In this document: piece by piece, positions 38,390-54,811 of the stretch
Layout: each line of letters begins with the position of its first letter
Numbering within the stretch: the stretch's first letter is position 1
NCBI RefSeq assembly: GCF_900095265.1
Contig: NZ_LT607653.1
Span: forward strand, 372,750-436,749
DNA length: 64,000 nt
Direction: 5' to 3'
Source: Janthinobacterium sp. UMAB-56
Lineage (GTDB): Bacteria > Pseudomonadota > Gammaproteobacteria > Burkholderiales > Burkholderiaceae_D
Notes under the pieces: generated by a model
The model's input: only the letters and a program-made list of their open reading frames with translations
The model's database searches: none
Told to the model about the DNA's origin: nothing
Translations under genes and position numbers: made by a program

Positions 38390-38567
38390 TCTAATATAAA
38401 TCGGTTCGCGCGCATGGTCAAGCGCAGCGACTGAAATGGCTGCTTTGCACGCTCGCTTGCTCTCGCTACAATGTGACGCAGCGGTTTTCCCTGCACCTGC
38501 CGACAGGCCCGCTGATTGTTTGGAAAACCGTTCCCTTCACCTGTTTTTCTACCGTTTTAGGAATGAC

Positions 38568-40010
38568 ATGCAGCAGACTCCGATTCGCTCCTTCCTGTGC
38601 GCGCTGGCGCTCGCAACCGGCATGCTCCCTGCCGCGCAGGCGGCCTATGCGCCGCTGCCGGCCACCATGCGCCTCGATTATCAGCACAGCGGCAATGCGC
38701 TGGGCGAGCATTATGCAGTCGAGCGCGTGCTGGTCGAACCCCTGCCATGGCCGGGCAATCCGGCGCGCCCCATCGACGACAGCAACCGTGGCAACAACCT
38801 GCTGGAAGTGGTCGATATCAAGTCGGGCAAGGTGCTGTACTCGCGCGGTTTTTCCACCATCTTCGGCGAGTGGGCCAGCACCGATGAAGCGAAAACCACC
38901 ACGCGCGCGTTTCAGGAATCCGTGCGCTTCCCGCAGCCCGAGCATCCCGTGCGCGTGCGCATCCTCAAGCGCGACGAGCGCGGCCTGTTTTCCGTTGTGT
39001 GGAGCACCGATGTCGACCCGGCCGCGCAAGACGTGATCCGCAAGCTGCCGCCGGCGCCCGTCAAGCCGATCCCGATCCGCATCAGTGGGCCCTCCAGCGA
39101 CAAGGTCGACCTGCTGATCATGGGCGATGGCTACACGGCAGCCGAGATGGGCAAGTTCGAAGCGACGGCGCGAAAATTGGCCGAGCACCTGTTTACCGTT
39201 TCGCCATTTCGCGAGCGGGCCAATGACTTCAACGTGTGGGCCCTGGCAGCGCCGACGCAGGAGTCGGGCGTGTCGCGTCCATCGACGGGCGTGCATCACG
39301 CGTCGCCGCTGGGCACGCGCTACGACATCTTCGGCAGCGAGCGCTATGTGCTGACGACGGATAACCGCGCGCTGCGCGACCTGGCGCAATATGCGCCGTA
39401 TGAATTCATCGAAATCCTCGTGAATAACGATACTTATGGCGGTGGCGGCATCTTCGGCCAGTTCAGCACGGCGGCAGCCAATAGTGACTGGGCCAGTTAC
39501 CTGTTCGTGCATGAATTCGGCCACCATTTCGCCGGCCTGGCCGACGAATACTACACTTCGCCCGTGGCCTATCAATCGAATGGCGAGCGCCAGGAACCGT
39601 GGGAGCCGAACGCCACGGCGCTGCGCGATCCGACCAGGCTGAAATGGAAGAACCACGTCCAGGCTGGCACGCCGCTGCCGACACCATGGCCGAAGCAGGC
39701 GTATGACAGCCATGCGCGCGAATATCAGAAGCAGCGCGCGGCCCTGCGTGCGCAAAATCGCCCGGAAAGCGAGATGAGCGACTTGTTCAAGGCCGACCTG
39801 GCGTACACGCAGCAGCTATTGTCCAAGGCGCCGCAGCGCCATGCCGTCGGTGCCTTTGAAGGCGCGAACTACGAGTCGTCCGGCTACTACCGGCCCGAGA
39901 TGCAATGCATCATGTTTGACCGCAGCGAGACGTTCTGCTCCGTATGCCAGGATGGCATCAGTACCATCATCGACCTGTATTCGCGTCCTGCCCCGGCGCC
40001 GGGCAAATAA
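38568..40010 (+). CDS. Secreted M64-family metallopeptidase
   Basis: A 480-aa exported peptidase. ATG 38568 opens a signal peptide (FLCALALATGMLPAAQA); the frame above it lacks protein character. After an N-terminal beta domain (~25-165) comes the M64 catalytic domain starting IRISGPSSDKVDLLIMGDGY, with the zinc motif FVHEFGHHFAGLADEYY (H315, E316, H319). Four C-terminal Cys/His residues (MQCIMF, FCSVCQDG) match the family. Named for an IgA protease, but most members are general secreted peptidases; T2SS export is plausible. Confidence 0.88.
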   Translation: MQQTPIRSFLCALALATGMLPAAQAAYAPLPATMRLDYQHSGNALGEHYAVERVLVEPLPWPGNPARPIDDSNRGNNLLEVVDIKSGKVLYSRGFSTIFGEWASTDEAKTTTRAFQESVRFPQPEHPVRVRILKRDERGLFSVVWSTDVDPAAQDVIRKLPPAPVKPIPIRISGPSSDKVDLLIMGDGYTAAEMGKFEATARKLAEHLFTVSPFRERANDFNVWALAAPTQESGVSRPSTGVHHASPLGTRYDIFGSERYVLTTDNRALRDLAQYAPYEFIEILVNNDTYGGGGIFGQFSTAAANSDWASYLFVHEFGHHFAGLADEYYTSPVAYQSNGERQEPWEPNATALRDPTRLKWKNHVQAGTPLPTPWPKQAYDSHAREYQKQRAALRAQNRPESEMSDLFKADLAYTQQLLSKAPQRHAVGAFEGANYESSGYYRPEMQCIMFDRSETFCSVCQDGISTIIDLYSRPAPAPGK

Positions 40011-40253: not shown

Positions 40254-40302
40254 TTGATTTACATCAATGCTGCAATGCCGCAATCGCACTTATAGTTGAC
40301 CT
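40254..40302 (+). promoter_or_regulatory. FNR/ANR-type class II promoter
   Basis: A perfect FNR box TTGAT-TTAC-ATCAA occupies 40254-40267, centre 40260.5. The -10 hexamer TATAGT is at 40291-40296, predicting a start near 40302, so the box is centred at about -41.5, the class II activation position. It is the only promoter I see ahead of the fabI-to-ackA gene run and implies induction at low oxygen. Confidence 0.75.
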
Positions 40303-40439
40303 AGCTCAAAGCGTCATGGAATGCGGATCGGACTCAGCTCGAATCACGCATCTAAATGCTGTAGAGTCATTTCGCCCCGCTCCAGTTCCCCGAGAATGCA
40401 CTGGTGCTGGCCACGAACTTAGTGACGGAAGCCAGATTC

Positions 40440-40583
40440 ATGAAGATACAGACCACCGCAGCTGAAGCAGGCAGCGCTTTACATCCCCATATCCCCATTG
40501 CCTTGCCATATGTGCGCGCCGGCGCGGTGCCATGCCTGAACGCGGCCATGCCCTGGCCGCTCATGGCTGCGGGCAAGCCATGA
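40440..40583 (+). CDS. Possible 47-aa upstream peptide coupled to fabI
   Basis: ATG 40440 follows CGGAAG and opens MKIQTTAAEAGSALH. The frame ends at TGA 40581-40583, overlapping the fabI ATG (40580) as ATGA, the pattern seen in coupled genes. There are no recognisable domains, and the composition (Pro, Ala, Leu) is unremarkable. It may be a regulatory upstream frame rather than a functional protein. Confidence 0.3.
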   Translation: MKIQTTAAEAGSALHPHIPIALPYVRAGAVPCLNAAMPWPLMAAGKP

Positions 40584-41365
40584 CGGCGCCGGTGCCGCAG
40601 TGCCTGCCATTGCAGGGCAAGCGCGGGCTGGTGGTGGGCATCGCCAACACGCACAGCATCGCCTGGGGCTGCGCCAGCGCACTGCGCGCGGCCGGCGCCG
40701 AACTGGCAGTGACCTGGCTCAATGACAAGGCCCGCCCGCACGTGGAGCCGCTGGCGCAGCAATTGCAGGCGGCCATCATGGCGCCGCTCGACGTGGCCGT
40801 GCCGGGCCAGCTCGAAGCGCTGTTCGCGCAGATCGAACGGCAGTGGGGGCGGCTCGACTTCCTCGTCCATTCCATCGCTTACGCGCCGAAGCAGGACTTG
40901 CATGGCCGCGTGACGGACAGTTCCGCCGACGGTTTTGCGCAGGCGATGGATATTTCCTGCCACTCCTTCATGCGCATGGCGAAGCTGGCCGAACCGCTGA
41001 TGCCGGACGGCGGCAGCTTGATGACCATGAGCTACCTGGGTGCGGAGGAAGTCATCGCCGACTACGGCCTGATGGGCCCCGTGAAGGCGGCGCTGGAAGC
41101 GTCGGTGCGTTACCTGGCCGCCGAACTGGGTCCGCAAGGCATCCGTGTCAACGCCATCTCGCCCGGCCCCCTGGAGACGCGGGCCGCTTCCGGGATTGCC
41201 CATTTCGACCGCCTGATGGCTGACGCCATTGCACGCTCCCCTATGCGGCGCCTGGCCACCATCGAGGACGTGGGGGCGCTGTGCGCCTTTCTCGCCGGCG
41301 ACGGCGCGCGCGCCATCACGGGCGGCACCTTGTATGTCGACGGTGGCTACAACATTCTGAATTGA
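40580..41365 (+). CDS. fabI: Enoyl-[acyl-carrier-protein] reductase, FabI family
   Basis: NAD(P)H-dependent reductase of 261 aa from ATG 40580, the usual FabI length; an in-frame ATG at 40532 would add 16 residues. Cofactor motif LVVGIANTHSIAWG, the loop HSIAYAPK and the catalytic Tyr-x6-Lys (ADYGLMGPVKAALE) are present, and the C-terminus ITGGTLYVDGGYNILN is typical. In an operon with DUF3141, Pta and AckA it may be a second, specialised FabI rather than the housekeeping enzyme; related clusters occur in other proteobacteria (family knowledge). Confidence 0.92.
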   Translation: MTAPVPQCLPLQGKRGLVVGIANTHSIAWGCASALRAAGAELAVTWLNDKARPHVEPLAQQLQAAIMAPLDVAVPGQLEALFAQIERQWGRLDFLVHSIAYAPKQDLHGRVTDSSADGFAQAMDISCHSFMRMAKLAEPLMPDGGSLMTMSYLGAEEVIADYGLMGPVKAALEASVRYLAAELGPQGIRVNAISPGPLETRAASGIAHFDRLMADAIARSPMRRLATIEDVGALCAFLAGDGARAITGGTLYVDGGYNILN

Positions 41366-41375
41366 CTGGAAGAAG

Positions 41376-42824
41376 ATGATCTTGCCTGTTCCCGTTCTAC
41401 CTGCATGCGCCAGGATGGCCGCGTTGGCCGCTACGCTTGCCCTGGCCGGCTGCGCCTCGATGGCGCCGCCGTATGCGGCACCGCCGCTGCCCGTGGCGGC
41501 GCAGTATCCGGAAACCGATCCGGCTGGCGCGCACGCGTCCGACGTCGCCTGGCAAAGCTACTTTGCCGACCCGCGCCTGCAGGCCATGCTTGCGCAGGCG
41601 CTGGCCAGCAACCGCGATATCCGCATCGCCGCCCTGCGCGTGGAAGAGGCGCGTGCCGCGTATGGCATTGCGCGCGCCGAACAATTTCCCACCATCGCGC
41701 TGGGCGCCTCCGGCAGCCGCGCGCGCGTGCCCGGTGACTTGAGCGTGACGGGGCGCCCCATGACGAGCGCGCAGTACCAGGCGGGCTTGAACGTGAGCGC
41801 CTGGGAGCTCGATTTCTGGGGTCGCGTGCGCAGCCTGAAAGACAGCGCGCTGCAAACCCTGCTGGCCAGCGACGAGGCGCGCCGCGCCGTCGGCGTGGCC
41901 CTGGTGGCGCAGGTCGCCAACGGCTACCTGGGCTTGCGCGAACTCGATGAACGGGTGGCGCTGGCGCGCGCCACGGTCGACAGCCGCGCCGAATCGTTGC
42001 GCATTTTTACGCGCCGTTTCGAAGTCGGTTCGATTTCCAAACTGGATCTGACGCAGGTGGAAACCTTGCTTAGCCAGGCCCTGTTGCTGGCGGCCCAGCT
42101 GGAGCAGGCGCGCGCCGTGCAGGCGCACGCGCTGGCCCAACTGGTGGGCGGCCCGGTCGACCTGACGCCGGTGGCTGGTGAGGTGCGCCGCTTCGACGAC
42201 GCCAGCGTGCTGCAGCCGCTGCACGCGGGCTTGCCCTCGTCTTTGCTCACGCAGCGCCCCGACCTGATCGCGGCCGAACATCAACTGCGCGCCGCGCAAG
42301 CCAATATCGGCGCCGCGCGCGCCGCCTTCTTCCCGACGATTTCGCTGACGGCGGCCTATGGCACGGCCAGCGCGGAATTGAGCGGCCTGTTCGATTCTGG
42401 CAGCGGCGCCTGGAATCTTGCGCCGCGCCTGGTGCTGCCGATTTTTGACGCGGGCCGTTTGCGCGCCAATATGGACCTGGCCGAAGTACGCCGCGACGTG
42501 GCCGTGGCCAATTATGAAAAAAGCGTGCAGGGCGCCTTCCGCGAAGTGGCCGACGCGCTGTCGAACCGGCGCTGGCTGGCGCTGCAAGTCGACATCGGCA
42601 AGACGACCCTGGCGGCGCAGAGCGAACGGGCGCGCCTGGCCAAGCTGCGCTACGACAATGGCGCCGCACCCTACCTGGAAGTGCTCGATGCGCAGCGCGA
42701 CCTGCTGACGGTGGAGCAGCAACTGGTGCAGACGCGCCGCGCTCTGCTTTCGAGCCAGGTCAGCCTGTATGCGGCGCTGGGCGGCGGCGCGCCCGCCTCC
42801 TCCGCCGCCGCTTCCACCCACTAA
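41376..42824 (+). CDS. Outer-membrane factor lipoprotein, NodT/OprM family
   Basis: TolC-type exit duct of 482 aa. A lipoprotein signal (TLALAGCASMAPPY) gives a lipidated Cys, followed by two OEP repeats (~60-260 and ~270-465), e.g. FWGRVRSLKDSALQTLLASD and LTQRPDLIAAEHQLRAAQAN. It starts 10 bp after fabI behind GGAAGA and is followed by an HlyD adaptor and ABC components, completing a tripartite exporter that spans the envelope. Confidence 0.93.
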   Translation: MILPVPVLPACARMAALAATLALAGCASMAPPYAAPPLPVAAQYPETDPAGAHASDVAWQSYFADPRLQAMLAQALASNRDIRIAALRVEEARAAYGIARAEQFPTIALGASGSRARVPGDLSVTGRPMTSAQYQAGLNVSAWELDFWGRVRSLKDSALQTLLASDEARRAVGVALVAQVANGYLGLRELDERVALARATVDSRAESLRIFTRRFEVGSISKLDLTQVETLLSQALLLAAQLEQARAVQAHALAQLVGGPVDLTPVAGEVRRFDDASVLQPLHAGLPSSLLTQRPDLIAAEHQLRAAQANIGAARAAFFPTISLTAAYGTASAELSGLFDSGSGAWNLAPRLVLPIFDAGRLRANMDLAEVRRDVAVANYEKSVQGAFREVADALSNRRWLALQVDIGKTTLAAQSERARLAKLRYDNGAAPYLEVLDAQRDLLTVEQQLVQTRRALLSSQVSLYAALGGGAPASSAAASTH

Positions 42825-42842
42825 TTTGATCGCCTCGATACC

Positions 42843-43916
42843 ATGAATGTTCAATTGAAGAAAAAACTCATCCCTGCGGCGCTGGTCGTGGCCGTTCTCG
42901 TGCTGGGCTATGTGGCCTGGCAAAAAATGCGTCCCACGGGCCCTGGCGCAGGTTTTGTCAGCGGCAATGGACGCATCGAAGCGACCGAGATCGATGTGGC
43001 CACCAAGCTGGCCGGCCGCGTCAAGGAGATCCTCGTGCGCGAGGGCGACTTCGTCAAGGCTGGCCAGCCGCTGGCCGCCATGCAGGTCGATTCCCTGACG
43101 GCCCAGCGCGACGAGGCGCGCGCGCGCCAGCAGCAGTCGTCCGACGCCGTGGTCGGCGCACAGGCGCAGGTGGCCGTGCGCGCGAGCGACAAGGCAGCCG
43201 CCCAGGCTTTGGTGGCGCAGCGCGAAAGCGAACTCGATGCGGCCAGGCGCCGCCTGGCGCGCTCCGAAACCCTGTCGAAGGAGGGCGCGTCCTCGGTGCA
43301 GGAACTCGACGACGACCGCGCCCGCGTGCGCAGCGTGGCGGCCGCACTGAATGCGGCCAGGGCGCAGGTCACGGCGGCGCAGGCGGCCATCGACGCGGCC
43401 AAGGCGCAGGTGGTCGGTTCCCGCTCCGCTGTCGTGGCGGCCGAGGCGACCACGGCGCGCATCGATGCCGACCTGGCCGATGGCCAGCTGACGGCGCCGC
43501 GCGACGGCCGCGTGCAATACCTGGTGGCGCAGCAGGGCGAAGTGCTGGCCGGTGGCGGCAAGGTGCTTAACCTGGTCGACCTGTCGGACGTCTACATGAC
43601 CTTCTTCCTGCCCGAGACGGCGGCCGGCAAGGTGGCGATGGGCGGCGAAGTGCGCATCGTCCTCGATGCGGCGCCCAGTTACGTGATTCCGGCAACCATC
43701 TCGTTTGTCGCCGCCAGCGCGCAGTTCACGCCAAAGACGGTGGAAACGGCCAGCGAGCGCCAGAAGCTGATGTTCCGCGTCAAGGCGCAGATCAGCCGCG
43801 AGCTGCTGCAAAAGCACCTGGCCCTGGTAAAAGTGGGCTTGCCTGGCGTGGCCTGGGTGCGTCTCGATGCGAAGCAGGCATGGCCCGCTGAACTGACCAC
43901 GAAGGTCCCGCAGTGA
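42843..43916 (+). CDS. HlyD-family periplasmic adaptor (YhiI-like)
   Basis: A 357-aa membrane-fusion protein anchored by one N-terminal helix ([18 protein letters not shown]). A biotinyl-lipoyl half-motif at ~45-75 ([20 protein letters not shown]), a long Ala/Arg-rich coiled-coil hairpin (~75-220) and a beta-barrel domain with [20 protein letters not shown] follow. It pairs with the RbbA-like ABC protein, whose gene overlaps it by 4 bp (GTGA). Confidence 0.92.
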
Positions 43917-46675
43917 CGATGGACGTGAAACCATCTGTCGTCAGTATCCAGGGCGTCAGCCAGCATTACGGCAAGACGGTGGCGCTCGATGGCATCGATC
44001 TTGACGTGCCGGCCGGCTGCATGGTGGGCTTGATCGGCCCCGACGGCGTGGGCAAATCGAGTTTGCTGTCGCTGGTGGCCGGCGCGCGCGTCGTGCAGCA
44101 GGGCAGCGTGATGGCGCTGGGCGGCGATATGCGCGATGCGCGCCATCGCGACGACGTCTGCCCGCGTATCGCCTACATGCCGCAAGGCCTGGGCAAGAAT
44201 CTGTATCCGACCCTGTCGGTTGAGGAAAACCTGCAGTTTTTCGCGCGCCTGTTCGGCCATGACGCGGCCGAGCGCCGCCGCCGCATCGACCAGCTGACCC
44301 GCAGCACGGGCTTGCAGCCCTTCCTGGCGCGCCCGGCGGGCAAGCTGTCGGGCGGCATGAAGCAGAAGCTGGGCCTGTGCTGCGCCCTGATCCACGATCC
44401 CGACCTGCTCATTCTCGATGAACCGACCACCGGAGTCGATCCGCTGGCGCGGGCCCAGTTCTGGGACCTGATCGCCGGCATCCGCGTGCAGCGCCCGCAA
44501 ATGAGCGTGATGGTGGCCACCGCCTACATGGACGAAGCGCAGCGCTTCGACTGGCTGGTCGCCATGGATGACGGCAAGGTGCTGGACACGGGCACGCCGG
44601 CCGAACTGCTGGCGCGCACGGACAGCAGCAACCTGGAAGCGGCCTTCATCAAGCTGCTGCCCGAAGCCAAGCGTGCAGGCCACCAGCCCGTCATCATCAC
44701 GCCGCTGGACGCGGCCAGCGCGCAGGACGTCGCTATCGAGGCGCAAGACCTGACCATGCGCTTCGGTGATTTTACTGCCGTCGACCATGTGAATTTCCGC
44801 ATCGGCCGTGGCGAGATTTTCGGCTTCCTGGGTTCGAACGGCTGCGGTAAATCGACCACCATGAAGATGCTCACGGGATTGCTTCCTGCGACGCAAGGCA
44901 AGGCCTGGCTGTTCGGCAAGGAAGTCGATTCCAACGATATCGACACGCGCCGCAGGGTCGGCTACATGTCGCAGGCATTTTCTCTGTACAGCGAGTTGAC
45001 GGTGCGCCAGAACCTGGTGCTGCACGCGCGCCTGTTTCACGTCCCCGACAGCGAAATAGGGGCGCGCATCGATGAAATGGCGCAGCGCTTCGACTTGAAT
45101 TCAGTGATGGACGACTTGCCCGACAGCCTGCCGCTGGGCATACGCCAGCGTTTGTCGCTGGCCGTGGCCATGGTGCACAAGCCGGAAATGCTGATCCTCG
45201 ACGAGCCGACGTCCGGCGTCGACCCCATCGCGCGCGACAATTTCTGGCGCCTGATGATCGAGCTGGCGCGGCGCGACCGCGTCACCATCTTCATTTCCAC
45301 CCACTTCATGAACGAGGCCGAGCGCTGCGACCGCATCTCGCTGATGCATGCCGGTAAAGTGCTGGTCAGCGATGCACCGGCCGAACTGGTACGCAAGAAG
45401 GGCGCGCCATCGCTGGAAGCGGCCTTCATCGCCTACCTGGAAGAGGCGGGTGGCGGTACGGCGCCGGCGACAGTGCAGGAAACGCCGGCACCCGTGCAGG
45501 AAGCGGCAGTGCAGGCACCGCAGCAGCAGGAACAGCGGCAGCAACGCAGCCGTTTCAGCCTGGGCCGCATGCTCAGCTACATGTGGCGCGAAACCCTGGA
45601 ATTGCGCCGCGACCCTGTGCGTCTGACGCTGGCGCTGGGCGGCTCGGTGCTGCTGCTGTTTGTCATCGGCTTCGGCATCAGCCTGGACGTGGAAGACTTG
45701 AGTTACGCAGTGCTCGACCACGACCAGACCACGCTGAGCCAGAATTACACGAATAACCTGGCCGGCTCGCGCTACTTCGTCGAGCGGCCGCCCCTGCGCG
45801 ACTATGCCGATATCGACAAGCGCATGCGCAGCGGCGAACTGTCGCTGGCCATCGAGATCCCGCCCGGCTTCGCGCGCGACGTGCAGCGCGGCGCGCCAGC
45901 GCAGGTGGGCGCGTGGATCGATGGCGCCATGCCGATGCGCGCCGAAACCGTGCAAGGCTACGTACAGGGCATGCACCAGCTGTGGCTGGCCGACCAGGCC
46001 TTGCACCGCTATGGCATCACGCTGAGCAACCCGGTCGCCATCCAGACGCGCTACCGCTACAACCCGGACGTGAAAAGCCTGCCCGCCATGGTGCCGGCCG
46101 TGATTCCTTTGCTGCTGCTGATGCTGCCGGCCATGCTGGCGGCGCTGTCCGTGGTGCGCGAAAAGGAACTGGGCTCCATCATCAACCTGTACGTGACGCC
46201 CGTGACACGCCTGGAATTTTTGCTCGGCAAGCAGGTGCCATACGTGGCGCTGGCCATGCTCAACTTTGTCCTCATGGCGCTGCTGGCGGTCACCGCCTTC
46301 GGCGTGCCGGTCAAGGGCAGCTTGCCGACCCTGATCTTTGCCACCTTCATCTTCAATATCTGCGCCACCGGCATCGGCCTGTTCGCCTCGACGTTTACGC
46401 GCAGCCAGATCGCGGCCCTGTTCGTGACCATGATCGGCACCATGATCCCGGCCATCCAGTTTTCCGGCCTGCTCAATCCTGTCTCGTCGATGGAAGGCGT
46501 AGGCAAGGTGATCGGCCTGATGTATCCGGCCACGCACATGCTCAATATCAGCCGGGGCGTGTTCAACAAGGCGCTGGGTTTTGGCGACTTGCACGCCTCG
46601 TTCTGGCCACTGATCGTCGCCATTCCCGTGATCCTCGGCGTGACGGTGGCGCTGCTGAAGAAACAGGAGTCGTAA
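43913..46675 (+). CDS. RbbA-like fused ABC transporter (two ATPase domains plus ABC-2 permease)
   Basis: A 920-aa fusion. First ATPase ~8-240: Walker [10 protein letters not shown], signature LSGGMKQK, Walker [14 protein letters not shown]. Second ATPase ~268-500: GSNGCGKST, a degenerate signature ([12 protein letters not shown]) and [13 protein letters not shown]. An acidic Gln/Pro linker (~505-550) leads to an ABC-2 permease (~560-915). This is the layout of E. coli RbbA (YhiH), which sits with yhiI and yhhJ just as here. Start is GTG 43913 overlapping hlyD, or ATG 43919. Substrate unknown. Confidence 0.92.
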
Positions 46676-46679
46676 GCGT

Positions 46680-47804
46680 ATGCGCCACCTTGAAAATATC
46701 TACCGCCTGGGCGTGAAGGAAATCTGGAGCCTGATCCGCGATCCCATGATGCTGATCCTGATCCTCTACACCTTCACTTTAGCCATCTACGTGGCTGCCA
46801 CGGCCAAGCCGGAAACCCTGCACATGGCCTCAATCGCCATCGTCGACGAGGATGGCTCGCCGCTGTCCGGACGCATCGCCTCGGCCTTTTTCCCGCCGCA
46901 GTTCACGCCGCCGGCGATGATCAACCAGGGCCAGGTCGATGCGGGCCTGGACGCCGGCCAGTACACCTTCGTGCTGACGATACCGCCCAAGCTGCAGGCG
47001 GACGTGCTGGGTGGGCGCCAGGCGGAATTGCAGCTGAACGTGGACGCCACGCGCATGAGCCAGGCCTTCAGCGGCAGCGGCTACATCCAGCAGATCGTTG
47101 CCGGCGAGGTGTCCGAATTCGCCAAACGATATCGGCGCGCGACGGTCTCGCCGGTGGAACTGGTGATGCGCTCGCGCTTCAATCCATCGCTGAGCCAGGC
47201 GTGGTTTGGCTCACTGATGGAAATCATCAACCAGGTGACGATGCTGTCGATCATCCTCACCGGCGCGGCCCTGATCCGCGAGCGCGAACACGGTACCATC
47301 GAGCACTTGCTGGTGATGCCCGTGACGCCGGCCGAGATCATGCTGGGCAAGGTCTGGTCGATGGGCCTGGTGGTGCTGCTGGCGGCCGCCCTGTCGCTGA
47401 ACCTGGTGGTGCGCGGCATGCTGCACGTGCCCATCGAAGGCTCGATAGCACTCTTCCTGTGCGGTGCGGCCCTGCACCTGTTTGCTACCACCTCGATGGG
47501 CATCTTCCTCGCTACCGTGGCGCGCAGCATGCCGCAGTTCGGCATGCTGCTGATCCTCGTGCTGCTGCCGCTGCAAATGCTCTCGGGCGGCAGCACGCCG
47601 CGCGAAAGCATGCCCGAACTGGTGCAGAACATCATGCTGATCGCACCGACCACGCACTTCGTCGAATTGAGCCAGGCGATTTTGTACCGCGGCGCCGGCA
47701 TCGACGTGGTGTGGAAACCGTTCCTGGCCCTGCTGGCCATCGGCACGGCCCTGTTTTCCTTCGCTCTGGCGCGCTTTCGCAAGACCATCAGCCAGATGGC
47801 GTAG
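46680..47804 (+). CDS. ABC-2 type permease, YhhJ-like
   Basis: A 374-aa inner-membrane permease: one N-terminal helix (MLILILYTFTLAIYVAATA), a ~150-residue periplasmic domain and five C-terminal helices with EREHGTIEHLLVMPVTPAEI. It is the second permease half for the RbbA-like protein, 4 bp downstream. Confidence 0.92.
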   Translation: MRHLENIYRLGVKEIWSLIRDPMMLILILYTFTLAIYVAATAKPETLHMASIAIVDEDGSPLSGRIASAFFPPQFTPPAMINQGQVDAGLDAGQYTFVLTIPPKLQADVLGGRQAELQLNVDATRMSQAFSGSGYIQQIVAGEVSEFAKRYRRATVSPVELVMRSRFNPSLSQAWFGSLMEIINQVTMLSIILTGAALIREREHGTIEHLLVMPVTPAEIMLGKVWSMGLVVLLAAALSLNLVVRGMLHVPIEGSIALFLCGAALHLFATTSMGIFLATVARSMPQFGMLLILVLLPLQMLSGGSTPRESMPELVQNIMLIAPTTHFVELSQAILYRGAGIDVVWKPFLALLAIGTALFSFALARFRKTISQMA

Positions 47805-47851
47805 GCCCCGCGCCGGAATGGTCCGGCGTATTTTGCATGAAAAGGATAGCC

Positions 47852-50098
47852 ATGAAGACCGAAGCTGCACCATTTTTCTCCATCGGCGGCTTGCCGTCGC
47901 TGGGCGTGCTGGGCGACTATGCGCGCGACTCGTGGCAGCGCATCGTGCTGTACGCGGACGTGATGCGCCGACGCGGCAATCAGTACCAGGAGCATCTGGC
48001 CGAGGAAGTGCCGAACGTGCTGGACTTCCCCGCCGAACTGGTGATGTCCGGCCTGGAGCTGGCGCGTCCCGTCAACTACGGCCTGGCGCGCATCCTGACG
48101 CCCGATGCGCCGCAGCCCGACGCGAGCAAGCGTCCTTTTGTCGTCGTCGATCCGCGCGCCGGCCACGGTCCCGGCATCGGCGGCTTCAAGGCCGAGAGCG
48201 AAATCGGCGTGGCCCTGCGCGCCGGCCATCCGTGCTACTTCATCGGCTTCCTGCCCGATCCCGTGCCGGGACAGACGGTGGAAGACGTGATGCACGCCGA
48301 GGCAGCCTTCCTGGAGAAAGTCATCGCCCTGCATCCGCTCAGCGAGGGCAAGCCCGTCGTCATCGGCAATTGCCAGGCGGGCTGGCAAATACTCATGACG
48401 GCGGCCATGCGCCCGGAATTGTTCGGTCCCATCATCGTGGCTGGCGCGCCCGTGTCGTACTGGGCCGGCTGGCATGGCCGCAATCCGATGCGCTATGCGG
48501 GCGGCCTGATGGGGGGCAGCTGGGCCACGGCGCTGGCGGGCGACCTGGGCAACGGCCGCTTCGACGGTGCCAGCCTGGTGCAGAATTTCGAGAAGCTGAA
48601 CCCGGCCAACACCCTGTGGAGCAAGCAGTACAACCTCTACGCGAACATCGACACGGAAGCGCCCCGTTATCTGGAATTTGAAAAATACTGGGGCGGCCAC
48701 GTGTTCCTCAATGACGTCGAGATGCAGTACATTGTCGACAATCTGTTCATCGGCAACCGCCTGGCCACGGCGGAGTTGATCACCTCCGATGGCGTGCGCC
48801 TGGACTTGCGCAATATCCGCTCCCCCATCGTCGTGTTTTGCTCGAACGGCGACAACATCACGCCGCCACCGCAGGCGCTGGGCTGGATCACGGACCTGTA
48901 CCGCGACGACAAGGATGTGCTGATGCATGATCAGACCATCGTGTATGCCGTGCATGACAGCATCGGCCACCTGGGCATCTTCGTCTCGGCCAAGGTGGGG
49001 CACAAGGAACACCAGAAATTCGCCAGCAATATCGACCTGATCAACCTGCTGCCGGCTGGCGTCTACGAAGCGAGGATCGTCGACAAGACGCCCGACACGC
49101 CGAACGCCGACCTGGCCAGTGGCGACTACGTGCTGCAGGTCGAGCACCGCAGCATCGAGGACGTGCGCGCCATCGTGCAGCCTAGCGTGGAAAACGACCG
49201 CAAGTTTGCCGCCGTCGCGCGCGTGTCCGAGGTGAACCTGGCCTTGTACCGCAGCTTCGCGCAGCCATGGGTGCGCGCCATGGTCACGCCGCAGTCGGCG
49301 CGATTCTTGCAGCTTGCGCATCCGCTGCGCGTGTCGTACGAGCGCTGGACGGATCACAATCCGCTGGCCAGGCTGGTGGCCAAAGAGGCGGAAAAAGTGC
49401 GCGGCCAGCGCCAGCCGGTGGCATCCGACAATCCGCTGCTGGCCATGCAGGAGGCCATCTCCGGCGCCATCACGGCCGGTTTGAACAGCTGGCGCGACTG
49501 GCGCGACACGCTGCAGGAAACCACCTTCGACCTGGTGTATGGTTCGCCCCTGGTACAGGCGCTGGCCGGACAAGCCATCGGTGACGCCACGCCGCCGCGC
49601 CCCCATCCCGGCATCTCGCCCGAGCATTGCGAATACGTGCGCTGCGAAACGCGCAAGATGGACGAAGACATGCAGCGCGGCGCCCTGGTGGAGGCGGCCG
49701 TGCGCGCGCTGTTCTACATCTACCGCTTCCGCATGATCGCCGACGAGCGCCGTGTCAACCTGGCCTTGAAGCTGATCCAGCCGCAATACCGGCAGGAATT
49801 CAGCATGGAAGAATTCCGTGGCATCGTGCGCCAGCAGGCGCGCTTGATGCTGCATGATTTTGACGCGGCCATCGCTGCCTTGCCAGCCTTGCTGTCGCGC
49901 GCCGACGCGGACGACATCGGCGCGCTGGCCGAGTGGCTGCAGCAAGTGCTGCAAGTGCCCGAAGCGCCGACGCCGGACGAAGAAGCGAGCCTGCAGCAGA
50001 TGCTGGAGGTCTTCGAGCGTGCGACCAAGGCCCAGGTCAAGGCGCTGCCGCAGGCCAGGCCCAAAGGCAAACCTGCCAAAAACACTACCCCTGCCTAG
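47852..50098 (+). CDS. DUF3141 alpha/beta-hydrolase (PHA-synthase-related)
   Basis: A 748-aa cytoplasmic protein. AAGGA six bases ahead fixes ATG 47852. The N-terminal half is an alpha/beta-hydrolase like poly-hydroxyalkanoate synthases: VVDPRAGHGPGIGGFK, GNCQAGWQILMTAA (Cys at the nucleophile elbow G-x-C-x-G instead of Ser) and the His region HDSIGHLGIF. The C-terminal ~250 residues are helical and unique to DUF3141. The Cys elbow is that of PhaC, so an acyl-transfer reaction is plausible. Catalytic activity is not established to my knowledge. The stop is 9 bp before the MaoC-Pta gene. Confidence 0.85.
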   Translation: MKTEAAPFFSIGGLPSLGVLGDYARDSWQRIVLYADVMRRRGNQYQEHLAEEVPNVLDFPAELVMSGLELARPVNYGLARILTPDAPQPDASKRPFVVVDPRAGHGPGIGGFKAESEIGVALRAGHPCYFIGFLPDPVPGQTVEDVMHAEAAFLEKVIALHPLSEGKPVVIGNCQAGWQILMTAAMRPELFGPIIVAGAPVSYWAGWHGRNPMRYAGGLMGGSWATALAGDLGNGRFDGASLVQNFEKLNPANTLWSKQYNLYANIDTEAPRYLEFEKYWGGHVFLNDVEMQYIVDNLFIGNRLATAELITSDGVRLDLRNIRSPIVVFCSNGDNITPPPQALGWITDLYRDDKDVLMHDQTIVYAVHDSIGHLGIFVSAKVGHKEHQKFASNIDLINLLPAGVYEARIVDKTPDTPNADLASGDYVLQVEHRSIEDVRAIVQPSVENDRKFAAVARVSEVNLALYRSFAQPWVRAMVTPQSARFLQLAHPLRVSYERWTDHNPLARLVAKEAEKVRGQRQPVASDNPLLAMQEAISGAITAGLNSWRDWRDTLQETTFDLVYGSPLVQALAGQAIGDATPPRPHPGISPEHCEYVRCETRKMDEDMQRGALVEAAVRALFYIYRFRMIADERRVNLALKLIQPQYRQEFSMEEFRGIVRQQARLMLHDFDAAIAALPALLSRADADDIGALAEWLQQVLQVPEAPTPDEEASLQQMLEVFERATKAQVKALPQARPKGKPAKNTTPA

Positions 50099-50107
50099 AA
50101 GACCAAA

Positions 50108-51523
50108 ATGACTACTCCCCAAGACGATGATTTGCATATCGTGCGTAACCGAACCTTCGACCAGATCGCCATCGGCGACACCGCCAGTATCACGCGCACC
50201 CTGAGCATGGACGATATCGCCCTCTTCGCCGTGATGTCGGGCGATGACAACCCGCAGCACCTGGACGCCGAATTTGCCGCCTCCAGCCGCTACCAGGGCG
50301 TCATCGCCCACGGCATGTGGGGTGCTGCCCTCATTTCCGCCGTACTGGGCACGCGCCTGCCTGGCGCCGGCACGGTTTACACGGGCCAGACCCTGCGCTT
50401 CCTGCAGCCCGTGCGCGTGGGCGATACGCTGGCCATCAGCGTCACCGTCACGGCGCTCGAGCCGCGCAACCGCCACGTGACCCTGGCCTGCCGCTGCGTC
50501 AACCAGCATGGCGCCGTGGTGCTTGACGGCGAAGCGCAGGTGATCGCGCCCGCCGAGCCGATCGAGAGGGCGCGCGCCACCCTGCCCGAAGTGCGCCTGC
50601 ATAACGGCGACGGCACGCGGCGCCTGCTGGAGCACGCGCGCACCCTGGGGCCGATCAGGGTCGCCGTGATCCACCCTTGCGATGAACTGAGCCTGTCAGG
50701 CGCGCTTGACGCGCATGCGGCCGGCCTGATCACGCCCGTGCTGGTGGCGCCGCGCGCGCGCCTGGAAGCGGTGGCCCTGGAAGCGGGACTGAGCCTGGAG
50801 GGCATCGCCATCGAGGATGTCGAGCATAGCCATGCGGCCGCTGCGCGCGGTGCCGAACTGGCGGGCAAGGGCGAGGTGGAGGCGCTGATGAAGGGCAGTC
50901 TGCACACGGATGAACTGATGTCGGCCGTGCTGGCCGCCAGCGCCGGCCTGCGCACCAAGCGCCGCATCAGCCACTGCTTCCTGATGCAGACGCCCGCATA
51001 TCCGCGCCCCTTCATCATCACGGACGCGGCCATCAATATCGCGCCGAACCTGGCCATGAAGGCCGACATCGTGCGCAACGCCATCGACCTGGCGCACGTG
51101 ATCGGCGTGGCCAGGCCGCGCGTGGCCATCCTGGCCGCAGTGGAAACGGTGAACGCGGACATGCCGGCCACCCTGGACGCAGCCGCCCTGTGCAAGATGG
51201 CCGACCGTGGGCAAATCACGGGGGCGATCCTCGATGGCCCGCTGGCCTTCGATAATGCCGTCTCGATCGCCGCCGCCACCGTCAAGGGCATCGTCTCGGA
51301 AGTGGCGGGCCGTGCCGATATTTTGCTGGTGCCGGACCTGGAAAGCGGCAATATGCTGGCCAAGCAGCTTGAATACATGGGCGACGCGGACAGCGCCGGC
51401 ATCGTGCTGGGTGCGAAGGTGCCCGTCATCCTCACCAGCCGCGCCGATTCGCGCGCCAGCCGCATCGCCTCGTGCGCCATCGCCGTGATGCTGGCCAACC
51501 ATTATCGGAGCACGCCACCATGA
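50108..51523 (+). CDS. Bifunctional enoyl-CoA hydratase / phosphate acetyltransferase
   Basis: Fusion of 471 aa. Residues ~10-150 are a MaoC-type hotdog hydratase with the Asp/His dyad in SGDDNPQHLDAEFA; residues ~165-465 are a phosphotransacetylase/phosphotransbutyrylase domain (RVAVIHPCDELSLSGALDAH, MKGSLHTDELMSAVL). The pair could hydrate an enoyl-CoA and convert acyl-CoA to acyl-phosphate, which the kinase encoded next (4-bp overlap) would turn into ATP. This fusion next to ackA and DUF3141 recurs in proteobacteria. Confidence 0.92.
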   Translation: MTTPQDDDLHIVRNRTFDQIAIGDTASITRTLSMDDIALFAVMSGDDNPQHLDAEFAASSRYQGVIAHGMWGAALISAVLGTRLPGAGTVYTGQTLRFLQPVRVGDTLAISVTVTALEPRNRHVTLACRCVNQHGAVVLDGEAQVIAPAEPIERARATLPEVRLHNGDGTRRLLEHARTLGPIRVAVIHPCDELSLSGALDAHAAGLITPVLVAPRARLEAVALEAGLSLEGIAIEDVEHSHAAAARGAELAGKGEVEALMKGSLHTDELMSAVLAASAGLRTKRRISHCFLMQTPAYPRPFIITDAAINIAPNLAMKADIVRNAIDLAHVIGVARPRVAILAAVETVNADMPATLDAAALCKMADRGQITGAILDGPLAFDNAVSIAAATVKGIVSEVAGRADILLVPDLESGNMLAKQLEYMGDADSAGIVLGAKVPVILTSRADSRASRIASCAIAVMLANHYRSTPP

Positions 51524-52740
51524 ACGCACTCGTCCAACATGCCGCCGACGGCAGCCTGATACTGGTGCTCAATTGCGGCTCGTCGAGCATCAAGTTCGCC
51601 CTCTTCGAGCAAGCGGGCGGCGTGCTGCCGCAGCAGGCGCAATGGAGCGGCAAGGTCGAAGGCATCGGCCGCGAAAACGCCACTTACCGCGCCGGCGGCC
51701 TGCCGGCTGTATCCCTGCAGCTCGACCCGGACAAACCGCATCATGCAGCCCTTGAAACCATCCGCGCGCAAGTCGTGGCGCAGCTGGCCGGGCGCCCGCT
51801 GCGCGCCGTAGCGCACCGCGTGGTGCATGGCGGCAGCAAGTATTTCGCCCCCGTGCGCATCGATTTCACCGTCCTGGCGGACTTGAAAAGTTTTATCCCG
51901 CTGGCGCCCCTGCATCAGCCCTTCGCCCTGGAAGCGATCGAGGTGCTGCTGGAATCGCGGCCCGACATCGCCCAGGTGGCGTGCTTCGACACGGCCTTTC
52001 ACCACACGGTGCCGCAGGTCGAGCAGATGCTGCCGCTGCCCTACGAAGCCTGGGAGCGGGGCTTGCGCCGCTACGGTTTTCACGGCCTGTCGTACGAATA
52101 CCAGTCGCTGGTGCTGGAACAGCGCTTCGGTGCTGTCGCGCGCGGCAAGGTCATCGTCGCGCACCTGGGCAGCGGCGCCAGCCTGTGCGCCATGCAGAAT
52201 TTGCACAGCGTGGCCACGACCATGGGCTTTTCCGCGCTTGACGGCCTGATGATGGGCACGCGCTGCGGTTCGCTCGATCCGGGTGCGGTGATCTACCTGA
52301 TGGAGATCGAAAAACTGTCGCTGGAAAAAGTGGCGCATGTGCTGTACCACGAGTCTGGCTTGCTGGGCGTGTCGGGTGTGTCGGCCGATCCGCCCGTGCT
52401 GCTGGCGCAGCAGGACCGGCAGGATGCCACGGGCGAGCGCATCCGCGCCGCGCTGGCGTTATATATCCGCCGCATCGTGCGCGAGATTGGCGCCCTGACG
52501 GCCGTGCTGGGCGGACTGGACCTGCTGGTGTTTACGGCCGGTATCGGCGAGCACAGCGCTGAACTGCGCCAGCGCATCTGCGCCGAGCTGGGTTTTGTTG
52601 GCCCCCTGCTCGACGCGCAGGCCAATGCGCGCAACGCCAGCCGCATTTCCAGCGATGCCAGCCGCATCGTGGTGGGCGTGGAGCCGGCCAATGAAGAGTG
52701 GGTGGCGGCACGCCACGCGGCCCTGGCCGTGAGTGCATGA
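51520..52740 (+). CDS. ackA: Acetate kinase
   Basis: Transfers phosphate from acetyl- (or another acyl-) phosphate to ADP. The 406-aa product has the ASKHA motifs LVLNCGSSSIKFALF, HRVVHGGSKY, FHGLSYEY, GTRCGSLDPGAVIYLM and FTAGIGEHSAELR. ATG 51520 overlaps the Pta stop by 4 bp. It closes the operon; no clear terminator is visible after it. Together with the Pta half it would give substrate-level ATP when oxygen is low. Confidence 0.95.
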   Translation: MNALVQHAADGSLILVLNCGSSSIKFALFEQAGGVLPQQAQWSGKVEGIGRENATYRAGGLPAVSLQLDPDKPHHAALETIRAQVVAQLAGRPLRAVAHRVVHGGSKYFAPVRIDFTVLADLKSFIPLAPLHQPFALEAIEVLLESRPDIAQVACFDTAFHHTVPQVEQMLPLPYEAWERGLRRYGFHGLSYEYQSLVLEQRFGAVARGKVIVAHLGSGASLCAMQNLHSVATTMGFSALDGLMMGTRCGSLDPGAVIYLMEIEKLSLEKVAHVLYHESGLLGVSGVSADPPVLLAQQDRQDATGERIRAALALYIRRIVREIGALTAVLGGLDLLVFTAGIGEHSAELRQRICAELGFVGPLLDAQANARNASRISSDASRIVVGVEPANEEWVAARHAALAVSA

Positions 52741-53489: not shown

Positions 53490-53593
53490 CGTCGGCCACT
53501 TTTCTGTGGCACCGCTGGCCAGTCTTGATCTGGCGCAAATGCTCCTCTTTTCGCCGTGCCATAGTGAATTGGCAAACAGACGAGGGAGACATC

Positions 53594-54811
53594 ATGAGCA
53601 GCGCTCAATCGAAGAAATTACCGTCCACCGGTTCGGCGGAAGGCAGGCCAGCCATGTCCGCCATGCAGTCCATGCCGGTCGAAGGTGAGCTGCAGGCCGG
53701 CGCTGATGCGACGGGCGGCGTTGCGGGCGGTGGTGGCATGGGCGGCGGGAGTGGCGGCAGTGGCGGTGACGGGGGCCAGGGTGGCGCTACGCCGCAGACG
53801 CGCACCTGCGCCACGATGGACGTGCATCGCTGCCTGCTGACCGACGATCCATCTTATGCGAACGTGCGCGCCGAGATCGAAAACCTGGCCGGATTGTACG
53901 AGGGTGACGCCAGCATTGCAGGGCGTTCCGGCGTGACGCAGATACCGGTGGTGGTGCACGTGGTGTGGAATGCGGCCGCGCAGAATATTTCGGATGCGCA
54001 GATCGCCAGCCAGATCGATGTGCTCAATCGTGACTTCCGGCGCGTCAATCCGGATGTGAATGGCACGCCGGCGCCGTTTCTGCCGCTGACGGCCGATGCG
54101 CGCGTGGCGTTTGCGCTGGCCACGATCGATCCGCATGGCGCGGCCACCAGCGGCATAGAGCGGCGCCAGACGACGGTGCCATCCTTTGGCGCGGACGATG
54201 CCGTCAAGTCGCAGGCGACGGGCGGCATGGATGCCTGGCCGGCCGACAGTTACCTGAATGTATGGGTGTGCCAGCTCGGTGGCGGCTTGCTGGGCTACGC
54301 GCAGTTTCCCGGCGGTCCGGCCGCCACCGATGGCGTGGTGATCCTGCAATCGGCCTTTGGCACGACCGGCACGGCGGCGCCACCGTTCCACCTGGGGCGC
54401 ACGGCCACGCATGAAATCGGCCACTGGCTTAACCTGAACCATATCTGGGGCGACGACGGCACCGGGTGCTCGGGCTCGGACAACGTGGCCGACACGCCCA
54501 ACCAGGGCGGTCCGAACACGGGCCAGCCTGTATTCCCCCACGTTTCCTGCAGCAACGGGCCGAATGGCGACATGTACATGAACTACATGGATTACGTCGA
54601 CGATACCGCCATGTTCATGTTTACGGCGGGGCAGGTGACGCGCATGCAGGCTTGTCTCGATGGCCCGCGCGCCAGCATCGGCAGCGGGACGGGCGGCACG
54701 GCTGCCACGCCGCGCCAGAGTTCCTCTCCCGTCGTGGCCTGGGGCCGAACCGCCTCGATGTCTTCGTCATCGACACGGACCGGGCCCTCACGGCCTGGTC
54801 GCCCTCCATGA
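53594..54811 (+). CDS. M43-family zinc metalloprotease with frameshifted C-terminus
   Basis: A 405-aa metzincin, ATG 53594 behind GAGGGAGA. A Gly-rich segment (~residues 45-65) leads to the catalytic domain with [15 protein letters not shown] (H273, E274, H277, H283) and Met-turn region [10 protein letters not shown]. There is no signal peptide. The last ~25 residues (after VVAWG) are out-of-frame product: in the -1 frame the DNA reads [15 protein letters not shown], the start of a PLL-type lectin repeat. One C appears lost in the GGGGCC run at 54741-54746. The protease domain itself seems complete. Confidence 0.85.

Follow-up and report, generated by a model that had tools for sequence, protein, structure and literature searches.

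A recurrent pairing of an RbbA-type exporter with DUF3141 in Janthinobacterium, and its possible link to polyhydroxyalkanoate chemistry at low oxygen

Why should a tripartite ATP-binding cassette (ABC) exporter lie in the middle of a run of acyl-metabolizing genes? The question is raised by a stretch of 64,000 nucleotides from Janthinobacterium sp. UMAB-56 (contig NZ_LT607653.1, positions 372,750 to 436,749), here called the window. Eight genes follow one another on its + strand between 40580 and 52740, namely fabI, an outer-membrane factor, an HlyD adaptor, rbbA, a second ABC-2 permease, DUF3141, a MaoC-Pta fusion and ackA. An initial annotation of the sequence called them an acyl-coenzyme A (CoA)/acyl-phosphate module with an exporter that was not obviously explained. 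Its gene calls and gene order were confirmed, as were gaps of under 50 bp, the largest being 47 bp (10, 18, −4, 4, 47, 9 and −4 bp from fabI to ackA). The several 4-bp overlaps it mentioned do exist but number only two, between adaptor and rbbA and between MaoC-Pta and ackA, or three if a small open reading frame (ORF) ending on the fabI ATG is counted. The answer we offer, tentatively and with a confidence a little short of even, is that this is an FNR-controlled low-oxygen operon of polyhydroxyalkanoate (PHA)-type 3-hydroxyacyl-CoA chemistry with the RbbA-type exporter as a real, recurrent partner.

This answer is carried first by the recurrence of the exporter beside DUF3141. The initial annotation had proposed a comparison of DUF3141 neighborhoods, and this was carried out on a panel of the best 80 of at least 570 DUF3141 loci, six of them from Janthinobacterium. 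A pump was counted where RbbA or the permease matched at ≥45% identity within 10-kb flanks. An RbbA-type exporter lies near DUF3141 in 31/80 loci, spread over 15 genera of alpha-, beta- and gammaproteobacteria. Because the panel leans toward window-like sequences, 4/7 sequences in the search alignment having come from exporter loci, 31/80 is not a frequency. The exporter is upstream on the same strand in 24/31 loci and upstream but divergent in three Microvirga, one Bradyrhizobium metagenome-assembled genome (MAG) and Lampropedia; it is downstream on the same strand in Pseudochelatococcus contaminans (L198) and downstream and convergent in a Comamonas MAG (L193). Three Pandoraea loci and one Dyella locus have the exporter and DUF3141 with no pta, ackA or fabI matches in the available flanks. 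Since the pairing recurs even there, it suggests that the pump handles something made by DUF3141. Within the genus, DUF3141 is present in 37/40 Janthinobacterium genomes, UMAB-56 included, and in 32 of these 37 the permease lies no more than about 0.6 kb upstream on the same strand. No such permease was found at E ≤ 1e-60 in four genomes (G003, G012, G021, G026), and G010 has a more distant permease elsewhere in the genome. The eight-gene order is identical in Delftia (L062/L165, L160). This identity and the 32/37 genus genomes indicate that the order is non-random.

Statistics across genomes and trees gave a similar picture. In a phylum sample nine genomes hold both genes against 2.8 expected (P 0.0008). 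In an order sample the two are adjacent in 3/8 genomes holding both, versus about 0.4% at random for a 20-kb neighborhood in 5 Mb (P 4e-6); without UMAB-56 the figure is 2/7 (P 3e-4). On a tree of 77 RbbA proteins, 75 of them different, the DUF3141-linked state requires six changes versus a shuffled mean of 26, and at least four changes are forced by the starred branches. Because the tree needs several changes, the two genes came together, or stayed together, on more than one occasion. The pairwise distances among DUF3141 proteins also track those among RbbA proteins (r 0.75 over 38 loci, some from the same genome twice), and 0/2000 permutations were as high. Recurrence of the pair in other, unrelated bacteria suggests that it is probably functional.

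The exporter loci also contain PHA genes. Matches to PhaC, phasin-like or PhaB proteins occur in 15/31 exporter loci versus 1/49 other panel loci (PhaC 11/31, phasin-like 12/31 and PhaB 9/31, versus 0/49, 1/49 and 0/49), the queries having been taken from exporter loci, so that distant versions elsewhere could escape. Among the loci without an exporter only Delftia L153 has a phasin-like gene; there the enzyme set is present and the pump is missing. At the same thresholds only 3/39 exporters without DUF3141 have a PHA gene nearby: PhaB in L119, a phasin-like gene in L120 and PhaC, on the opposite strand, in L134. Family matches include PhaC PF07167 (197 bits), PhaB TIGR01829 (348 bits) and a PhaA-type thiolase in L183. 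Pfam recognized Phasin_2 in L194, L122, L152, L180, L183, L186, L193 and L203 and did not recognize it in the phasin-like ORFs of L177, L144 and L153. The L144 ORF was called by BLASTP to L152 (E 3e-10), and the calls in L151, L154, L160 and L165 come from tblastn alone. The fullest arrangements interleave the two kinds of genes. Comamonas composti (L177) reads PhaC-FabI-outer-membrane factor-HlyD-RbbA-permease-phasin-like-PhaB-DUF3141-MaoC-Pta-AckA, and Janthinobacterium L144 reads PhaC-FabI-exporter-phasin-like ORF-DUF3141-MaoC-Pta-AckA. Because L144, of the same genus, carries PhaC and a phasin-like ORF, a fuller PHA version was probably the ancestor of the window operon or a partner in exchange with it. 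The exporter that had seemed hard to explain can now be placed: in some of the DUF3141 loci it accompanies DUF3141 itself and, often, PhaC, phasin and PhaB.

Low-oxygen expression was part of the initial proposal, and the upstream region bears on it. A perfect FNR/FixK-type box, TTGATTTACATCAA, found by motif match and conservation, lies at 40254..40267 on the + strand as a putative oxygen-responsive activator site, followed by a putative −10 element, TATAGT, predicted from its spacing (40291..40296, + strand). The box is centered about 43 bp 5′ of a start near 40303 that is itself predicted. In FNR-activated promoters the box is centered near −41.5. The box is the sole match with ≤1 mismatch in the window, where shuffled sequence gives a mean of 0.78, and the genome has 50 perfect sites. 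Because a single site is weak on these figures, the evidence is its conservation. The block from the box to the −10 element is almost invariant in five Janthinobacterium sequences. The box 5′ of fabI is perfect in 5/6 panel Janthinobacterium loci, with one mismatch in the sixth, and perfect in 8/8 same-genus loci of another set, two of them without the pump; the two sets share at least one locus (L098, L143). Sites with ≤1 mismatch occur at 0.62 per kb 5′ of panel operons versus 0.09 per kb 5′ of 519 other conserved genes, and in 27/75 loci versus 27/519 control genes. This upstream control is fairer than a first background of 0.035 per kb, which includes coding sequence. The tally left out 5/80 loci with <300 bp upstream, and in some exporter loci (e.g. 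L163, L174, L183) the operon-start rule fell on DUF3141, placing the true upstream region outside the scan. The loci are related, several being one genome twice, and P values for these comparisons are indicative only. With a perfect box conserved in the Janthinobacterium loci examined, FNR-type control of the operon at low oxygen is likely. Divergent from the operon in L151, L154, L163, L174, L184 and L153 is a gene of one cluster, assigned to the TetR family by Pfam in L163. It persists in L153, where the pump is absent, and may regulate the whole operon.

The enzymes encoded around the exporter were then assigned to families. The MaoC-Pta fusion (50108..51523, + strand) matches NF006045, PRK08190 bifunctional enoyl-CoA hydratase/phosphate acetyltransferase, over its full length (residues 9-469; 744 bits, cut-off 282). 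Its Pta domain scores 290 bits with the butyryltransferase model TIGR02706 versus 67 bits with the Pta model TIGR00651. The closest solved structure is phosphate butyryltransferase 7vg9 (E 1e-64), and phosphate acetyltransferase or phosphotransacetylase entries reach only 1e-14 to 3e-13. The MaoC domain is closest to the (R)-specific enoyl-CoA hydratases 5cpg (E 5e-37) and 1iq6. The fusion is predicted to join a PhaJ-like (R)-enoyl-CoA hydratase to a butyryltransferase-like phosphotransacylase. Because the Pta domain is nearer butyryltransferase and the MaoC domain is PhaJ-like, the module originally proposed reads instead as PHA/3-hydroxyacyl-CoA chemistry rather than as a general acyl-phosphate module. 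The fused form is found in 15/21 exporter loci having the gene versus 2/29 others (L153 and L161, the latter on a contig that starts 58 bases before the DUF3141 match). The first gene, 40580..41365 (+ strand), is a fabI paralogue encoding an enoyl reductase of the short-chain dehydrogenase/reductase family (NF005717, 449 bits, cut-off 337), and the genome has another fabI homologue at a different place, 45% identical to this one. The last gene, ackA (51520..52740, + strand), encodes an acetate/propionate-family kinase (TIGR00016, 329 bits, cut-off 293); its start was placed at the ATG that gives a 4-bp overlap with MaoC-Pta.

The DUF3141 protein (47852..50098, + strand; PF11339, 956 bits) is 94-95% identical to its counterparts in named relatives. 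C174, D334 and H373 are invariant in 54 aligned DUF3141 proteins, and we infer that they form a catalytic triad. A cysteine at the nucleophile elbow, as in PHA synthases, had been pointed out in the initial annotation and is borne out by this invariance and by the modeled fold. The elbow motif of PHA synthases is G-x-C-x-G-G, and the sequence around C174, G-N-C-Q-A-G, departs from it. A structure model (predicted local distance difference test, pLDDT, 86.5) was compared with known structures. In VIA-align the seven best rows were all PHA synthases (Z 20.0-20.6, next 17.9), matching about residues 40-400; in Foldseek, ordered by E-value, other hydrolases came ahead and the first PhaC stood at rank 8. 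The model is that of a PhaC-like alpha/beta hydrolase with Cys-Asp-His residues, its C-terminal half being helical. By domain models it is not PhaC: PF11339 is the sole Pfam match, PhaC_N (PF07167) is absent, and the class I PHA synthase model TIGR01838 gives 17.7 bits against a cut-off of 622.65. A sequence search of DUF3141 against the PDB gave nothing useful. The C-terminal half folded alone (pLDDT 81.7, predicted template modeling score 0.56) had 2h5n as its best row, Z 10.0 over 106 residues, although such helical matches may reflect a common arrangement only. Elsewhere in the UMAB-56 genome (L002, C13:103234-103449) there is an apparent remnant of a second DUF3141, which matches the first 72 profile positions only.

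By sequence, the pump belongs to the RbbA/YhiI/YhhJ family. RbbA, with two nucleotide-binding domains and a fused ABC-2 membrane domain (43913..46675, + strand), scores above the curated equivalog cut-off (NF033858, 1603 bits, cut-off 1050). It is contiguous with the HlyD-type periplasmic adaptor (42843..43916, + strand; PF13437, 56.6 bits, cut-off 22.2) and the second ABC-2 permease, YhhJ-like (46680..47804, + strand; PF12698, 106 bits), which also resembles the RbbA membrane half. The adaptor is labeled YhiI-like from its position next to RbbA only. An outer-membrane factor of the NodT type precedes them (41376..42824, + strand; TIGR01845, 390 bits, cut-off 210; PF02321). Among the control genomes the RbbA model matches E. 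coli alone. The closest solved structures of permease and adaptor are weak and uninformative on substrate, and open-access literature searches turned up no substrate for the RbbA/YhiI/YhhJ family. Variants of the exporter locus were seen as well. In the RbbA loci L111-L116 the outer-membrane factor is unusually long, about 790 aa (e.g. L114 5918-8299), Pfam giving only the OEP family for the L114 protein. At L114 (1030-11988) the genes after the exporter encode this outer-membrane factor (793 aa), an acetate kinase and a phosphoketolase, and a perfect FNR box lies upstream. Here the same type of pump is found in another acetyl-phosphate context. At L119 (4707-15364) a PhaB-like reductase gene and the cydA and cydB genes of cytochrome bd come after the exporter; the DUF3141 gene of that genome is on a separate contig. 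On the short contig L086 (2-5838) an outer-membrane factor gene lies directly 5′ of DUF3141, with cydA/cydB-cluster genes after it.

The pump may instead simply share the promoter. In such regulatory hitch-hiking a general lipid or drug efflux pump, helpful under oxygen shortage or membrane stress, would use the FNR promoter without carrying the enzymes' product, which we consider a serious possibility, if somewhat the less probable one. Several results weigh against our proposal, and some of them favor this alternative directly. The pump is widespread, with RbbA over the cut-off in 27/274 class genomes, and 47/55 order-sample genomes with the permease have no DUF3141. Co-occurrence in the order sample is not enriched (8 found versus 6.2 expected, P 0.48). 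The pump is adjacent in only 2/27 DUF3141 genomes of the phylum sample and 3/34 of the order sample, UMAB-56 included, which rules out the exporter as a companion of every DUF3141. The enzymes persist intact without it in Delftia L153 and in Janthinobacterium L094 (G010) and L095 (G012), where the order is fabI-DUF3141-MaoC-Pta-ackA. Because some relatives lost the pump cleanly, the enzymes do not need it, and strict coupling is weakened. FNR-type sites are present in 12/27 loci with the pump and 15/48 without it, so they mark DUF3141 operons, not the pump; among exporters without DUF3141 a site with ≤1 mismatch was found in 7/38, one of them perfect (L114), with no upstream sequence available for L132. 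The pump also occurs with other low-oxygen or acetyl-phosphate genes, namely cytochrome bd in L119 and acetate kinase and phosphoketolase behind a perfect FNR box in L114. The PHA assignment has weak points of its own: the window operon is without PhaC, PhaB or a recognized phasin, two PhaC genes lying elsewhere in the genome, the Pta domain falls under the TIGR02706 cut-off (290 versus 410.5 bits), and AckA is outside the butyrate-kinase model TIGR02707 (45 bits, cut-off 289).

A hairpin between the permease gene and DUF3141 (47810..47829, + strand), found in a terminator-like scan, may separate exporter expression from that of the enzymes. It is one of 15 matches in that scan, and shuffles give 9.8. 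The stem is present in 9/13 exporter-bearing Janthinobacterium sequences compared, weakened in one, and a six-T run follows it 3′ only in L093, L139, L140 and L142. It is possibly a partial terminator or an mRNA stabilizer. Because this terminator-like hairpin is kept in relatives, transcription of the operon may be partly interrupted there rather than giving one transcript. Given the clean pump losses and the wide occurrence of pumps without DUF3141, coupling of pump and enzymes stands only slightly above plain co-regulation. What speaks for coupling is specificity: the pump is paired with DUF3141 repeatedly, in several orientations and, in Pandoraea and Dyella, where the other enzymes gave no match, and PHA genes often accompany the two (15/31 versus 1/49). 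Both observations are more specific than shared stress regulation would predict.

Plain acetate overflow is an unlikely explanation. Pta-AckA would convert acetyl-CoA to acetate and ATP while FabI and DUF3141 adjusted membrane lipids, PHA not being directly involved. AckA is an acetate/propionate kinase by model, and papers on Azoarcus and Bradyrhizobium diazoefficiens, in the portions available, read induced pta and ackA in just this way (PMC8467165, PMC10888616). Against it, the Pta domain prefers the butyryltransferase model to the Pta model (290 versus 67 bits), most exporter loci that have the gene (15/21) encode it as a fusion with a PhaJ-like hydratase, and PhaC, PhaB and phasin genes are interleaved in relatives.

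Gene transfer could also create recurrence. If the linkage arose few times and spread as one mobile cluster, the pairing would reflect transfer and not repeated selection, a reading to which we give very little credence. Very close RbbA proteins in Stutzerimonas, a Lysobacter MAG and the order genome G765, and the grouping of Pseudochelatococcus L198 RbbA with Alcaligenes, point to locus transfer for some close pairs across families. The four arrangements, the changes forced on the RbbA tree (at least four) and the distant clade formed there by the Microvirga and Bradyrhizobium exporters speak against this reading, and even a cluster that moved as one unit could serve a joint function. Chance insertion in this strain, although five genus genomes (G003, G010, G012, G021, G026) are without the exporter at this place, is refuted by the exporter in 32/37 DUF3141-bearing genus genomes and beside DUF3141 in 14 further genera, and is left with almost no probability.

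How the coupled operon would work can be sketched as follows, and we infer each substrate, direction and regulatory step of the sketch from the observed gene content, order and families, the triad residues and modeled fold, the conserved promoter site and the recurrent pairing. As oxygen falls, FNR would bind the box at 40254-40267 and transcription would begin near 40303. (R)-3-hydroxybutyryl-CoA, supplied by polyhydroxybutyrate (PHB) turnover or made in PHB's place, would be dehydrated by the MaoC domain to crotonyl-CoA, which the FabI-like enzyme would reduce to butyryl-CoA as an outlet for NADH. The Ptb-like (phosphate butyryltransferase-like) domain would make an acyl-phosphate, and AckA would take its phosphate to give ATP and a short-chain acid; alternatively, the hydroxyacyl-CoA might go straight to the Ptb-like domain. 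With its Cys174-Asp334-His373 triad, DUF3141 would transfer 3-hydroxyacyl groups to or from a chain, CoA or lipid, and the exporter would remove the DUF3141-dependent product. A more specific form of this proposal seems improbable at present: at low oxygen DUF3141, as a PHA-synthase-like acyltransferase, would synthesize short 3-hydroxyalkanoate oligomers, or lipids tagged with them, and the RbbA-type pump would be dedicated to their export. If true, it would mean that some bacteria secrete products of the storage-plastic pathway rather than only store them, and the YhiI-RbbA-YhhJ family would gain a substrate. DUF3141 and the RbbA exporter, both poorly understood as families, are linked to each other by repeated pairing, and both point to PHA metabolism and oxygen limitation. 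If our proposal is right, a pump family that extends to E. coli acquires a testable substrate class, and a low-oxygen fermentation route would lead from storage polymer to ATP.

The surroundings of the operon were also inspected. A small ORF of 47 codons (40440..40583, + strand) ends on the fabI ATG with the overlap ATGA. It stays in frame in eight Janthinobacterium sequences across a 42-bp indel, with 61 codons in seven relatives, and the same start pattern gave none in L143, L144 or L094-L098. It may encode a leader peptide or a small protein. On either side of the operon are genes for an M64 peptidase (38436-40010), whose end is 569 bp from fabI, and an M43 metallopeptidase (53525-54811); 213 bp separate ackA from the next listed ORF.

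Published work, as far as the accessible parts of each paper go, touches single pieces of this locus. DUF3141 is tied to PHA synthase and a C-D-H triad in a survey (PMC11878206) and a DUF3141 protein is mentioned once each in PMC8601165 and PMC8050969. The predicted B. diazoefficiens operon blr3456-blr3459 is among PhaR-controlled genes, with blr3456 up 7.2-fold and pta (blr3457) and ackA (blr3458) strongly induced in a phaR mutant (PMC10888616); blr3456 is taken, from gene order in Bradyrhizobium loci, to be the DUF3141 gene. A pta and an ackA are up 118- to 228-fold in NGR234 bacteroids (PMC3732241). The inductions in the phaR mutant and in bacteroids lend support to the proposed control. 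In a Herbaspirillum fnr triple mutant two further phaC genes, which may or may not encode DUF3141 proteins, are down 100- and 60-fold (PMC5862806). The PhaC genes discussed in PMC3783465 and PMC5862806 are other ones, and PMC5596199 yielded nothing on the genes of this locus. No paper joining RbbA and polyhydroxyalkanoate was found in the open-access literature, most subscription papers being outside the search, and DUF3141 is mentioned in three papers there. The pump family and the enzyme operon are known kinds, and it is their combination with PHA genes that was not found in open-access print.

The locus can be compared with four known systems. In the clostridial Ptb-Buk butyrate pathway acyl-CoA is converted to acyl-phosphate and then to acid and ATP. 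The window operon would share this scheme, judged by its genes, and it has a Ptb-like first enzyme, but its kinase belongs to the acetate/propionate family and not to the butyrate-kinase family. The rhizobial and proteobacterial DUF3141-pta-ackA-fabI operon has the same kinds of enzymes and FNR/FixK-type sites in part of its loci, whereas it usually has no exporter and its Pta is without MaoC. AckA of this type is 41-47% identical to the window AckA, compared with 63-68% for exporter loci of other genera (except Bradyrhizobium L206, 44%) and 69% for the pump-less Delftia L153. Class I PHA synthase shares with DUF3141 the modeled fold and the Cys-Asp-His residues; DUF3141 differs in that PhaC_N is absent, the elbow reads G-N-C-Q-A-G and the C-terminal half is long and helical. 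The exporter resembles that of E. coli, whose gene names and order we take to be YhiI-RbbA-YhhJ, in that HlyD adaptor, RbbA and second ABC-2 permease lie side by side. Unlike that exporter, the window set begins with an outer-membrane factor gene and sits inside a PHA-related operon.

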